In this document: piece by piece, positions 6,250 to 27,344 of the stretch
Position numbering within the stretch: the stretch's first letter is position 1
Layout of the letters: every line of letters begins with the position of its first letter
Assembly (NCBI RefSeq): GCF_002160815.1
Contig: NZ_NFLH01000017.1
Coordinates: forward strand, 1-47,657
DNA from: Massilimicrobiota sp. An134
GTDB taxonomy: Bacteria; Bacillota_I; Bacilli_A; Erysipelotrichales; Coprobacillaceae
DNA: 47,657 nucleotides
Direction: 5' to 3'
Notes under the pieces: model-generated
Seen by the model: only the letters and a program-made list of their open reading frames with translations
Told to the model about the DNA's origin: nothing
Database searches by the model: none
Program-made: the position numbers and the translations under genes

Positions 6250-7613
6250 TTAATACCCTAGTTTATATATCTTCTTTTTAGCAATAAACTGTGTCAAATA
6301 AAATGGAATACATAATATATCTTTATCTTTAGATACATCTTTTGAGTGAATAATATAGCGATTAAGAATTCTGTCAGAAAATTTAACATAAAATTCATCA
6401 ATAGAAGTATGAACCTTATAATTTGATGATTTGACTTCAATAGGGCAAATCTTATTTTTCCTAAATAGTATAAAATCAATCTCATAATTTTTCTTTTGCT
6501 TAACATTAGAAAAAGTATAATAAAATAATTCATTTCCTGTTGACGTTAATATCTGTGCAACTGCATTTTCATATAAATAGCCTAAATTTGCAGAAAGTTT
6601 GTCATTCAATAATTTTTCATAGATAATATTATCTGTAAAGTCTTTATCCTTAAATTGAAGTGTAACAAACAGTCCTGTATCGGCCAGATACAACTTGAAT
6701 TTGTTTAAATCTTTATATGCAGACAATCCTACATTAGGGTCATTTGCATGATATGCAACACTCACGACCTTAGAATCCTTTAGCTCTGAAATCATACTTA
6801 AAATAGAGTTATCAGTCGTTTTATATGAATTCAACATTTTCTTCGTTTGAAATCCTCTGGTGTTCTTGTTTAACTGGGATGGAATTGCTTCAAAAAGCAT
6901 TGCCAATCTTCCAGTAGAATCAATTTTTCTAAAATCATCCTCATACAAATTTAGAATATCTCTTTTTACCATATCTACTTTTCTAAAATTATTCGTTGTA
7001 ATGTATTCATTGACAGATTGTGGCATTCCACCTACCAGCATATATAAACGAAAATCACGCATCAACTTTCGATTCAGCCTGTCTCCAAAATTCTTCTTAT
7101 TATCAAATACGCTTTTCAATAACTTCATAGTAGAATTATCATTCAAAGCCCAAAGAAATTCTTCAAAATCCATTGGATGCATTTGCAGTTTTCTTTCTTC
7201 ACTTGGAATGAGAATATCTTTCACATTTTTTTTGATTGAAATCACTGAACCAGTTTCAATATAATCATATCTTCCATCCTTTACCAATGTCTTGATTGCT
7301 TGTCTTGCATAAGGGCAAAGCTGTACTTCATCAAAAATAATAACAGACTTTCTTTCGATTAAGTCTACTTTATATTGCAATTGAAGTTGAAGAAAAAAAT
7401 AATTCAAATCAGACATATCATCGAATAACTCTCTAATTTGTGCAGAAGCAATAGAAAAATCAATGAGGATATAACTATCATATTCCATCTTTGCAAATTC
7501 TTCTACTATAGTTGATTCCCAACACGGCGTGCTCCTTCAATAAGTAGGGCTGTCTTCCCATTTGATTCTCTTTTCCACTCTTTTGTTTTTTCATAAATTT
7601 TTCGCTTAAACAT
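6250..7613 (-). pseudogene. AAA ATPase with DUF4143, frameshifted in Walker A
   Basis: The true start is the ATG at 7613, preceded by ATAGGAGGA, reading MFKRKIYEKTKEWK and on to LLIEGARRVG. Exactly at the P-loop lysine codon one base is missing (about 7516-7520, GGGAATCA where GGGAAATCA is expected). The frame then hits TAG; shifting by -1 restores STIVEEFAKMEYDSYILIDFS and the rest of the protein to 6250. Walker B is VIIFDEVQL. The C-terminus carries EIDFI followed by PIEVKSS, a PD-(D/E)xK-like site usual in DUF4143 proteins. It is clearly paralogous to the intact gene at 26019-27344. Without the shift it would be 454 aa. The role of this ATPase family is not established. Confidence 0.85.
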
Positions 7614-7642: not shown

Positions 7643-7688
7643 TCCAAAAATCGCAATAAAATTTCTACATAAACCTCCAAAAATCGCA
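7643..7688. repeat. 13-bp direct repeat, 33-bp period, upstream of ATPase pseudogene
   Basis: TCCAAAAATCGCA occurs twice, starting at 7643 and 7676. On the minus strand it lies 30-75 nt before the ATG at 7613, in the presumed leader or promoter of the AAA/DUF4143 gene. A tandem array of the same 33-bp period, but of different sequence, precedes the intact paralogue. Confidence 0.65.
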
Positions 7689-7895
7689 CTGATTTTCTCC
7701 TGCAAAAAAAGAAATTTGAGTGTTGGATTTTGTCCCTCCTCTCTATTTTTGATAGTGTCGTTAAAAATACGAGTTTATTCAATGTAGATAGTTCTTATTA
7801 TCTTCTAATACATCTTATATATTTTTCTTCAAATCCAGCACATTTCAAGATTAATTCTAAATAGTTTTTCATGAAATATGTTTTCATTAATATAA

Positions 7896-25565: not shown

Positions 25566-26018
25566 AATATCACCTTTCCTATCTTCACTATACATAAAAA
25601 AAAGAAGAATAATGAAAAAAATTATGAAAGATTTTCTAAAAAGCATTCTATATTCGTAGCTTTACAATAATAAACAAATATTATTGTTATGATTAATATA
25701 AAACGGTTCTACTCGACATCATGAGTGAGTATTTGAGTAAACGATATATTCATTTTATACATAGATATATGAGTTGAAATCAATTATAAAATATAACTCA
25801 AAATCCTATATTAATGAATAATTATAATCTCATCAATCATAATATAAAATATACATTACATATTAATACCCAATCTCATAACCTATAATTTTGAAGAAAT
25901 GTATGATTTGGCATAAAATAATATTGAAGAAATGTATGATTTAGCATAAAATAATATTGAAGAAATGTATGATTTAGAACAAAACAATATTGAAGAAATG
26001 TAAAAAGGAGTGATGGCA
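25566..26018. other. Very AT-rich intergenic region containing a 33-bp tandem array
   Basis: No gene with a ribosome site is seen on either strand. The left two thirds are AT-rich with no clear structure; the right end holds a tandem repeat (25891-26000) that runs into the ribosome site of the AAA/DUF4143 gene. Confidence 0.6.
25891..26000 (+). repeat. 33-bp tandem repeat, 3.3 copies, just before an AAA/DUF4143 gene
   Basis: Copies start at 25891, 25924, 25957 and 25990 (the last partial). Each opens with TTGAAGAAATGTATGATTT. Copies 1 and 2 differ by one base; copy 3 has diverged in its second half. The partial copy ends directly at the AAAAAGGAG ribosome site. The period is 11 codons or about three helical turns; an in-frame TAA in copies 1 and 2 argues against a translated repeat. 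Confidence 0.9.
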
Positions 26019-27344
26019 GTGTATTTCAAAAGAAAAGCTTACGATAAATTAATAGATTGGAAATCAAATTATGCTGATAACTATGCTGTTTTGTTAGAAG
26101 GTGCAAGACGTGTAGGAAAATCAACAATAGCTAAATTATTTGCTGAAAATGAGTATAAATCATACATTTTGATAGATTTTTCAATTGCTTCAGCTGATAT
26201 ATTATCCTGCTTTGATGATATTAATAATTTGGATATGTTTTTTTTAAGGTTACAGGCAATCACTGGAATTAATTTATATGAACATGAGTCAGTTATTATT
26301 TTTGATGAAGTACAGTTATTTCCTAAAGCCAGACAAGCAATTAAGCACTTGGTAAAAGATGGACGATATCATTATATTGAAACTGGTTCTTTAATATCCA
26401 TTAAAAAAAATGTGAAAGATATCTTAATCCCTTCTGAAGAAATGAAAATTGAAGTCTATCCTATGGATTATGAAGAATTCTGCAATGCCACAGGAAATAA
26501 TTATAATTTAATAAAGCAATTGTTTGATATGAAAAGAGCAATTGGTCAAGAAGTGAATAGAAAACTCATGAGAGATATTAGGATATATATGGCAGTCGGT
26601 GGTATGCCTCAAGCTGTTGAAGCATATGTGAATGGGAATAATTTTTCCACTATAGATAATGTAAAGCGTCAAATTATTCATCTTTATGAAGAAGATTTCA
26701 AAAAAATAGATCCATCAGGAAAAATATCTGCGCTTTATCATTCAATCCCCGCTCAATTAGCTAAAGATCAAAAGAAATACCGTATGTCCACTGCGCTAAA
26801 AAAGAGAACGACGATTAAAGAAGAAGAATTATTATTTGATTTATTTGATTCTAAAACTGTATTACCCTGCTACAATTCAACCGATCCTAAAGTGAGTTTG
26901 ACTTCAACGAAAGATTTAAATAGCTATAAACTCTATTTATCTGATACGGGATTATTCGTAACACTTATGTTTATAGACCGACCTATTACAGAAAATGAAA
27001 TATATGCTAAACTTCTTTCTGATAAATTACCAGCAAATTTAGGATATTTATATGAAAACTTAATGGCACAATTATTAGCTTCAAAAGATAGAGAATTATA
27101 TTATCATACATGGCAAAAAGAAAATAGCACTCATTATTATGAGATAGACTTTTTAATTTCTGAAGGTAGTAAAATTTCAGCTATTGAGGTCAAATCTTCA
27201 GGTTCGGGTAAACATGATTCTATATGTAAATTTGAAAAAAAATATTCAAAACATATAAAAAATTGTTATATCTTTTCGCAAAAAGACTACAAACAGGAAA
27301 ATGGTATACAGTTTATGCCCATATATTTAGCCCCATTTATATAA
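26019..27344 (+). CDS. AAA ATPase with C-terminal DUF4143, intact paralogue
   Basis: A 441-aa protein. Walker A is EGARRVGKSTIA (about residues 27-38) and Walker B VIIFDEVQL, followed by a sensor-like YIETGSLISI. The C-terminal DUF4143 part carries YEIDFLISEGSKISAIEVKSSG, a PD-(D/E)xK-like nuclease-fold signature. It is a widespread family of unknown function in gut bacteria, often in several copies per genome. AAAAAGGAG ends 8 nt before the GTG at 26019, which gives MYFKRKAYDK aligned with the paralogue's MFKRKIYEK, so this start is preferred to the GTG/ATG at 26010/26013. The second copy, at 6250-7613, is frameshifted. Confidence 0.87.
   Translation: MYFKRKAYDKLIDWKSNYADNYAVLLEGARRVGKSTIAKLFAENEYKSYILIDFSIASADILSCFDDINNLDMFFLRLQAITGINLYEHESVIIFDEVQLFPKARQAIKHLVKDGRYHYIETGSLISIKKNVKDILIPSEEMKIEVYPMDYEEFCNATGNNYNLIKQLFDMKRAIGQEVNRKLMRDIRIYMAVGGMPQAVEAYVNGNNFSTIDNVKRQIIHLYEEDFKKIDPSGKISALYHSIPAQLAKDQKKYRMSTALKKRTTIKEEELLFDLFDSKTVLPCYNSTDPKVSLTSTKDLNSYKLYLSDTGLFVTLMFIDRPITENEIYAKLLSDKLPANLGYLYENLMAQLLASKDRELYYHTWQKENSTHYYEIDFLISEGSKISAIEVKSSGSGKHDSICKFEKKYSKHIKNCYIFSQKDYKQENGIQFMPIYLAPFI

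Follow-up and report, generated by a model that had tools for sequence, protein, structure and literature searches.

Regularly spaced 33-bp repeats upstream of an AAA_14-DUF4143 ATPase-nuclease gene as a probable gene-specific operator

The window analysed here, a stretch of 47,657 nucleotides of DNA from Massilimicrobiota sp. An134, carries an array of 33-bp direct repeats immediately before a gene for an AAA_14-DUF4143 ATPase-nuclease, and the array is probably a cooperative operator private to that gene, bound by the encoded protein and repressing or tuning its transcription. Comparison with relatives indicates that the array is no isolated peculiarity: in this very common but poorly understood family, many genes have repeats at regular intervals in the promoter region, and the repeat sequence, which differs from gene to gene, looks like a private switch read by the gene's own protein. 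The features concerned are collected in Table 1.

Table 1. Features of the window that bear on the repeat array and its gene.
Feature	Position	Strand	Basis or remark
Second family member, 54% identical, damaged near the N-terminus	6250..7613	-	Owns the array at 7643..7689; core different
Second array, 2 copies of TTGCGATTTTTGGA type, 33 bp apart	7643..7689	-	Before the second family member
33-bp direct-repeat array, 3.6 copies	25885..26002	+	Tandem Repeats Finder
Array cores TTGAAGAAATGTA	starts 25891, 25924, 25957, 25990	+	Three full units and one partial, each beginning TTGAAG
Promoter-like pair of unit 1: TTGAAG, 17 bp, TAAAAT	25891..25919	+	Alone not above shuffles; phase conserved in relatives
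Promoter-like pair of unit 2: TTGAAG, 17 bp, TAAAAT	25924..25952	+	Sequence; phase conserved in relatives
Shine-Dalgarno sequence AAAAGGAG	26003..26010	+	Seen in sequence
AAA_14-DUF4143 ATPase-nuclease gene, 441 aa, PADLOC PDC-S01, start GTG	26019..27344	+	Pfam, PADLOC, alignment

The array is the strongest tandem repeat of the window as scored by Tandem Repeats Finder, with a period of 33, 94% matches and a score of 201, the runner-up among 42 rows for the window scoring only 54. An earlier note on this DNA had described three full copies and one partial copy of a 33-bp unit running directly into the Shine-Dalgarno sequence, and both parts of that description are borne out, since the final unit terminates at about position 26002 and adjoins AAAAGGAG. 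In unit 3 the -10-like position reads CAAAAC, the hexamer having been lost, and promoter-like pairs in this AT-rich stretch are no commoner than in shuffles. A scan of the array region against Rfam returned no credible family, and no terminator was found at the array.

The start of the gene was placed by alignment at GTG 26019, in agreement with ATGTATTTTAAAAGA in relatives; GTG 26010, the start given in a mechanical list of open reading frames, was rejected because the same alignment favours the later codon. The AAA_14 and DUF4143 Pfam domains score 77 and 62.7 bits against curated cut-offs of 27 and 28.1, and, together with these two domains, a full-length match to the PADLOC profiles (E 1.9e-91, residues 1-439) assigns the protein to PDC-S01 (AAA_14/DUF4143, COG1373). 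A 2026 survey ranks PDC-S01, with its ATPase and PD-(D/E)XK parts, fourth by frequency among prokaryotic defences, validation being pending for most candidates of its kind; its passages on PDC-S01 do not mention promoter repeats, and the word 'promoter' occurs 0 times in the main text (PMC12988326). No solved structure was found by searching with the sequence of the encoded protein. A structure model (pLDDT 90.5) comprises an AAA domain, a winged-helix-like part and a C-terminal domain, and residues 235-307, modelled as three helices and two strands, are read as a predicted winged helix. Fold comparison, which covers the families present in fold libraries, placed the archaeal ATPase 2qen closest to the model (Z 16.5, rmsd 3.7, 260 aligned), with matches also to the STAND proteins CED-4 (Z 14.6) and Avs5 (Z 12.0), although no sensor region was seen. 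When folded alone, the C-terminal domain has the TBP-interacting protein 2czr as its top row (Z 9.3) and matches the PD-(D/E)XK nucleases Cdn1 (Z 8.4, rmsd 3.2, 109 aligned) and Can2 (Z 8.3), with McrC, Hjc and FokI lower. The Walker residues and E346, D377 and E390 are invariant in 69/69 proteins and K392 is present in 68/69. With the core fold, the D and the E-x-K residues of the PD-(D/E)XK class all in place, the domain is a predicted nuclease.

A scan of contigs yielded 440 relatives, of which the best 80, 60-99% identical, were kept; these come from Lachnospiraceae, Erysipelotrichaceae, Treponema, Chloroflexi, Synergistes and others. Among the 79 of these with a gene start, 77 had a usable upstream of at least 120 bases. 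Absence of the array upstream of orthologues had been named in the earlier note as the outcome that would speak against it; in 75 of these 77 upstreams, a repeat at a lag of 31-35 is present whose strength no more than 1 of 100 shuffles equals. The mean repeat score over the relatives' upstreams shows a sharp peak at 33 (22.8 versus 4.3), and another at 66. A core profile identified 213 cores of the TTGAAGAAATGCAC type in the 80 upstreams, 71 of which hold a core, while the remaining nine bear different cores. Core-to-core spacing is exactly 33 bp in 133 of 142 cases, the profile having been trained on the same upstreams but with spacing forming no part of it. Between loci the cores and their spacing stay while the linkers drift, a signature of selection on cores and spacing alike. 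Controls drawn from the same loci gave little comparable signal: the score attained by 64 of the 77 focal genes is reached by 6 of 319 other genes, and three other 200-base stretches gave 2/73, 2/74 and 2/74. Five of the six scoring control genes owe their score to these same family arrays read on the other strand, and the remaining one lies before a protein that, judged from its start alone, begins like the ATPase-nuclease family (GARQVGKT, a P-loop start), so that none of the six appears to be independent of the family. The conserved unit consists of gene and array, the 3' flanks being unrelated between loci.

The distribution of such arrays was examined in a family-wide set of 130 DUF4143 genes, taken from a phylum sample and from 15 genomes chosen for holding a close relative. 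A significant upstream repeat is present in 73 of the 130. In the protein cluster to which the window's gene belongs, 40 of 50 genes have a repeat at 32-34 bp and 10 of 50 are without a significant array of that period; in a sister cluster all 11 genes have a period of 22-23 bp or double that value. A third cluster of 52 genes has 12 at 38-43 bp and one at 32-34 bp, with significant dyads in 18, and a fourth, of 15 genes, has few direct repeats and long inverted repeats upstream in 12 (L170, L171, L174, L177 and L178 among others). The arrays of the 23-bp sister subfamily (L145, L156, L208, L219, L222 and others) were also seen to be gene-specific. Members on viral contigs and plasmids, several of them near-duplicates, have the 32-34 bp period in 14 of 15 cases, 13 of which lie above all 100 shuffles; for six plasmid members at a greater distance (22-29% identity) the period is 32-33 bp in four, and three lie above all 100 shuffles. 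As judged from these comparisons, array geometry follows the protein subfamily and core sequence follows the individual gene.

The gene-specific character of the cores was assessed with 57 genes carrying significant arrays in 15 genomes. Within a gene's own array the second copy agrees at 11-14 of 14 bases, whereas a paralogue's upstream offers a best match of 11 or fewer in 240 of 246 ordered pairs, the level obtained with shuffled letters; two of the six exceptional pairs stem from one pair of paralogues that are 93% identical. In one genome (G170), all nine family members found carry an array of 32-33 bp with differing cores, and two of its motifs, traced genome-wide, occur solely at their own genes (4/4 and 3/3 sites). 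The core of the window's array occurs three times at its own gene. A regulon reading was rejected, the core being represented elsewhere in the genome by a single site with two mismatches.

A relation between the cores and the promoter is apparent from the position of -10 boxes. A box matching at least 5 of 6 positions lies 17 bp past TTGAAG in 45 of 209 cores, including 14 perfect boxes, compared with 0-10 cores at other offsets from 12 to 39, offset 26 excepted; at offset 26 there are 46 matches in 203, AATAAT and TATAAT being common there. In the 24 loci whose best -10 box is in the 17-bp phase, the box stands after the final core in 13 and after the penultimate one in 10. It would appear, then, that a core often supplies the -35 box, with the remaining cores lying upstream. 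In L290, L293 and L299, which derive from uncultivated viral contigs and a Segatella plasmid, the last core is followed at a comparable distance by a TATCTTTG box, which resembles the Bacteroides -7 box. Overlap between promoter and array (27/36 in cluster 1, 7/8 in cluster 3) had no null and was not counted as evidence.

Since gene and array have spread across phyla as a self-contained unit, with private cores and a conserved promoter phase, the encoded protein is the likeliest reader of the array and its own promoter the likeliest target; repression as the effect, as well as a role in defence, is what we infer. According to this proposal, one unit would cover the promoter's -35 box and spacer, the others, placed at exact intervals of 33 bp, would allow several protein subunits to bind next to one another in constant register, and the bound subunits would shut off or tune transcription of their own gene; a separate core for each paralogue would prevent cross-regulation among them. 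Of the functions suggested in the earlier note, a ladder of protein-binding sites fits best, by virtue of the exact spacing, the conserved cores between drifting linkers and the -10 phase, with binding itself put forward as the probable explanation of these features. The further suggestion that the sites lie on one helix face survives with respect to the period of 33 bp but not in its strict form, since at 10.5 bp per turn 33 bp corresponds to 3.14 turns and neighbouring sites would be rotated by about 50 degrees, and hence not strictly on one DNA face. Several results count against the operator reading, namely the negative domain tests described below, the 10 of 50 subfamily genes without an array, arrays that lack the gene, the loss of the hexamer in unit 3 and the occurrence of promoter pairs at shuffle level. 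The domain tests asked which part of the protein reads the array. Coevolution of core bases with protein columns placed winged-helix columns in 17.5% of the top 40 pairs versus 18.8% of variable columns, and specificity columns number 7/35 in the winged helix against 21/147 in the AAA domain and 14/49 in the nuclease domain, with no winged-helix enrichment in either case.

Closer to the window, five gene copies in the genus keep the array, with 4 cores in the window's own copy, 4 and 2 in G002, 2 in G003 and 3 in G004. A length-variable switch, also proposed in the earlier note, is therefore upheld as far as variation in copy number is concerned (4/4/3/2/2 within the genus), but nothing shows a switching action. 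Three of the five copies are in pieces or interrupted by stops (G002:C30, G003:C6, G004:C12) and their arrays persist, and the survival of arrays beside broken orthologues suggests fast gene turnover. Comparison of the window with the near-identical locus G002:C50 revealed a sole array difference, in unit 2 (25924-25956), where the differing base agrees with unit 1 in one of the two genomes and with unit 3 in the second, as would happen if units converted one another. Genome G001 holds distant members only, at most 31% identical over most of the protein; a candidate empty site there (L006) was discarded as a chance match inside other genes. Two exact cores 33 bp apart occur at nine places in 98 relatives, of which seven precede the gene and two do not. 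The two gene-less arrays of the same core are at L326 (G121:C64, 670-750), in an assembly where no relative of the ATPase-nuclease gene was found, and at L327 (G170:C18, 713-760), where the next gene resembles a MATE transporter. Arrays of this kind may be relics or reused operators. Three viral contigs that match two exact cores, conceivably phage decoys, were taken as chance because two represent the same terminase-like gene start and one is a glutamate-rich coding stretch.

Among the alternatives, the one that survives best, though it is thought unlikely, is that the array is an assembly platform that loads or holds the STAND-like ATPase as a regular oligomer, licensing or sequestering the nuclease, with control of the promoter secondary. 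The exact spacing would then represent the oligomer register, and its dependence on subfamily (33 or 23 bp), together with structural kinship to oligomer-forming STAND and ORC-type ATPases, agrees with such a role; however, the position of the cores, on the -35 box and close to the start codon, favours control of transcription as the primary role. A function in recombination or mobility, with the nuclease recognising the array as the terminus of a mobile unit of one gene, would accommodate the wide and patchy distribution across phyla, plasmids and uncultivated viral contigs as well as the arrays that occur without the gene, but is improbable given that the 3' side has no matching site, its flanks being unrelated, and that a promoter phase is unexpected for element ends.

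An element acting at the RNA level, whose transcribed repeats are bound as RNA or act on translation in the manner of a leader or a type III toxin-antitoxin system, is held to be quite improbable. Type III systems have tandem repeats of similar length directly before the gene, a placement shared by the present arrays, and units 3 and 4 of the window would fall within the transcript if the unit-2 promoter were used. The cores examined here differ in often lying upstream of a predicted -10 box; indeed, in the 13 of 24 phased loci with that box beyond the last core, the transcript would contain no complete core. Neither an Rfam family nor a terminator accompanies the array, and in sister subfamilies DNA palindromes or 23-bp repeats take the place of the array. 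The same positions of the -10 box tell against a translation-tuning leader as a general role, which the earlier note had raised on the grounds that the period equals 11 codons, as do the presence of an open frame through to the gene in only 19 of 68 arrays and the sister period of 23 bp, which is not a multiple of 3. Finally, binding by a host regulator, or by sigma factor alone at tandem promoters, would account for the TTGAAG-17-TATAAT geometry but is highly improbable, because core conservation reaches past the -35 hexamer, each paralogue in one genome has a different core and the module crosses phyla.

The operator reading has parallels in known systems. The iterons of plasmid replication are direct repeats at even intervals, recognised by a winged-helix protein that regulates its own gene as well, and the present arrays share the even spacing and, as proposed here, a reader with a predicted winged helix and own-gene control; they differ in being mostly on chromosomal contigs and in that the protein is an AAA ATPase with a nuclease domain. 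In the RptR system, a type I restriction island has a promoter with three direct repeats bound by an adjacently encoded repressor, the repeats being of 9 bp with the palindrome TAGCTA, overlapping the -10 box and read by a separate small regulator (PMC12255303). On that account, the likeness lies in direct repeats within a defence-associated promoter, whereas the present arrays have a spacing of 33 or 23 bp and non-palindromic cores that differ per gene, no separate regulator gene is conserved beside the ATPase-nuclease gene, and the core TTGAAGAAATGCAC does not contain TAGCTA. In the literature searched, RptR was the nearest case and no description of promoter repeats with such genes was found, nor any trigger, target or regulation for the family; most subscription journals and bioRxiv lay outside that search, and an earlier description is possible.

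A broader and more speculative scheme, considered rather doubtful at present, is that the STAND-like ATPase-nuclease, a member of one of the commonest candidate immune families, assembles in register on its gene-specific array, a built-in DNA address whose geometry is set by the subfamily, such that loss of the assembly, for example on infection, would free the nuclease and switch the gene on, with paralogues coexisting without crosstalk. As regards the family, the private array gives each protein a defined candidate DNA ligand and offers a way of recognising intact ATPase-nuclease modules. Taken over many genes, the arrays represent a natural collection of candidate protein-operator pairs with different specificities, and privacy of this kind would explain how nine or more paralogues are kept separate within a single genome.
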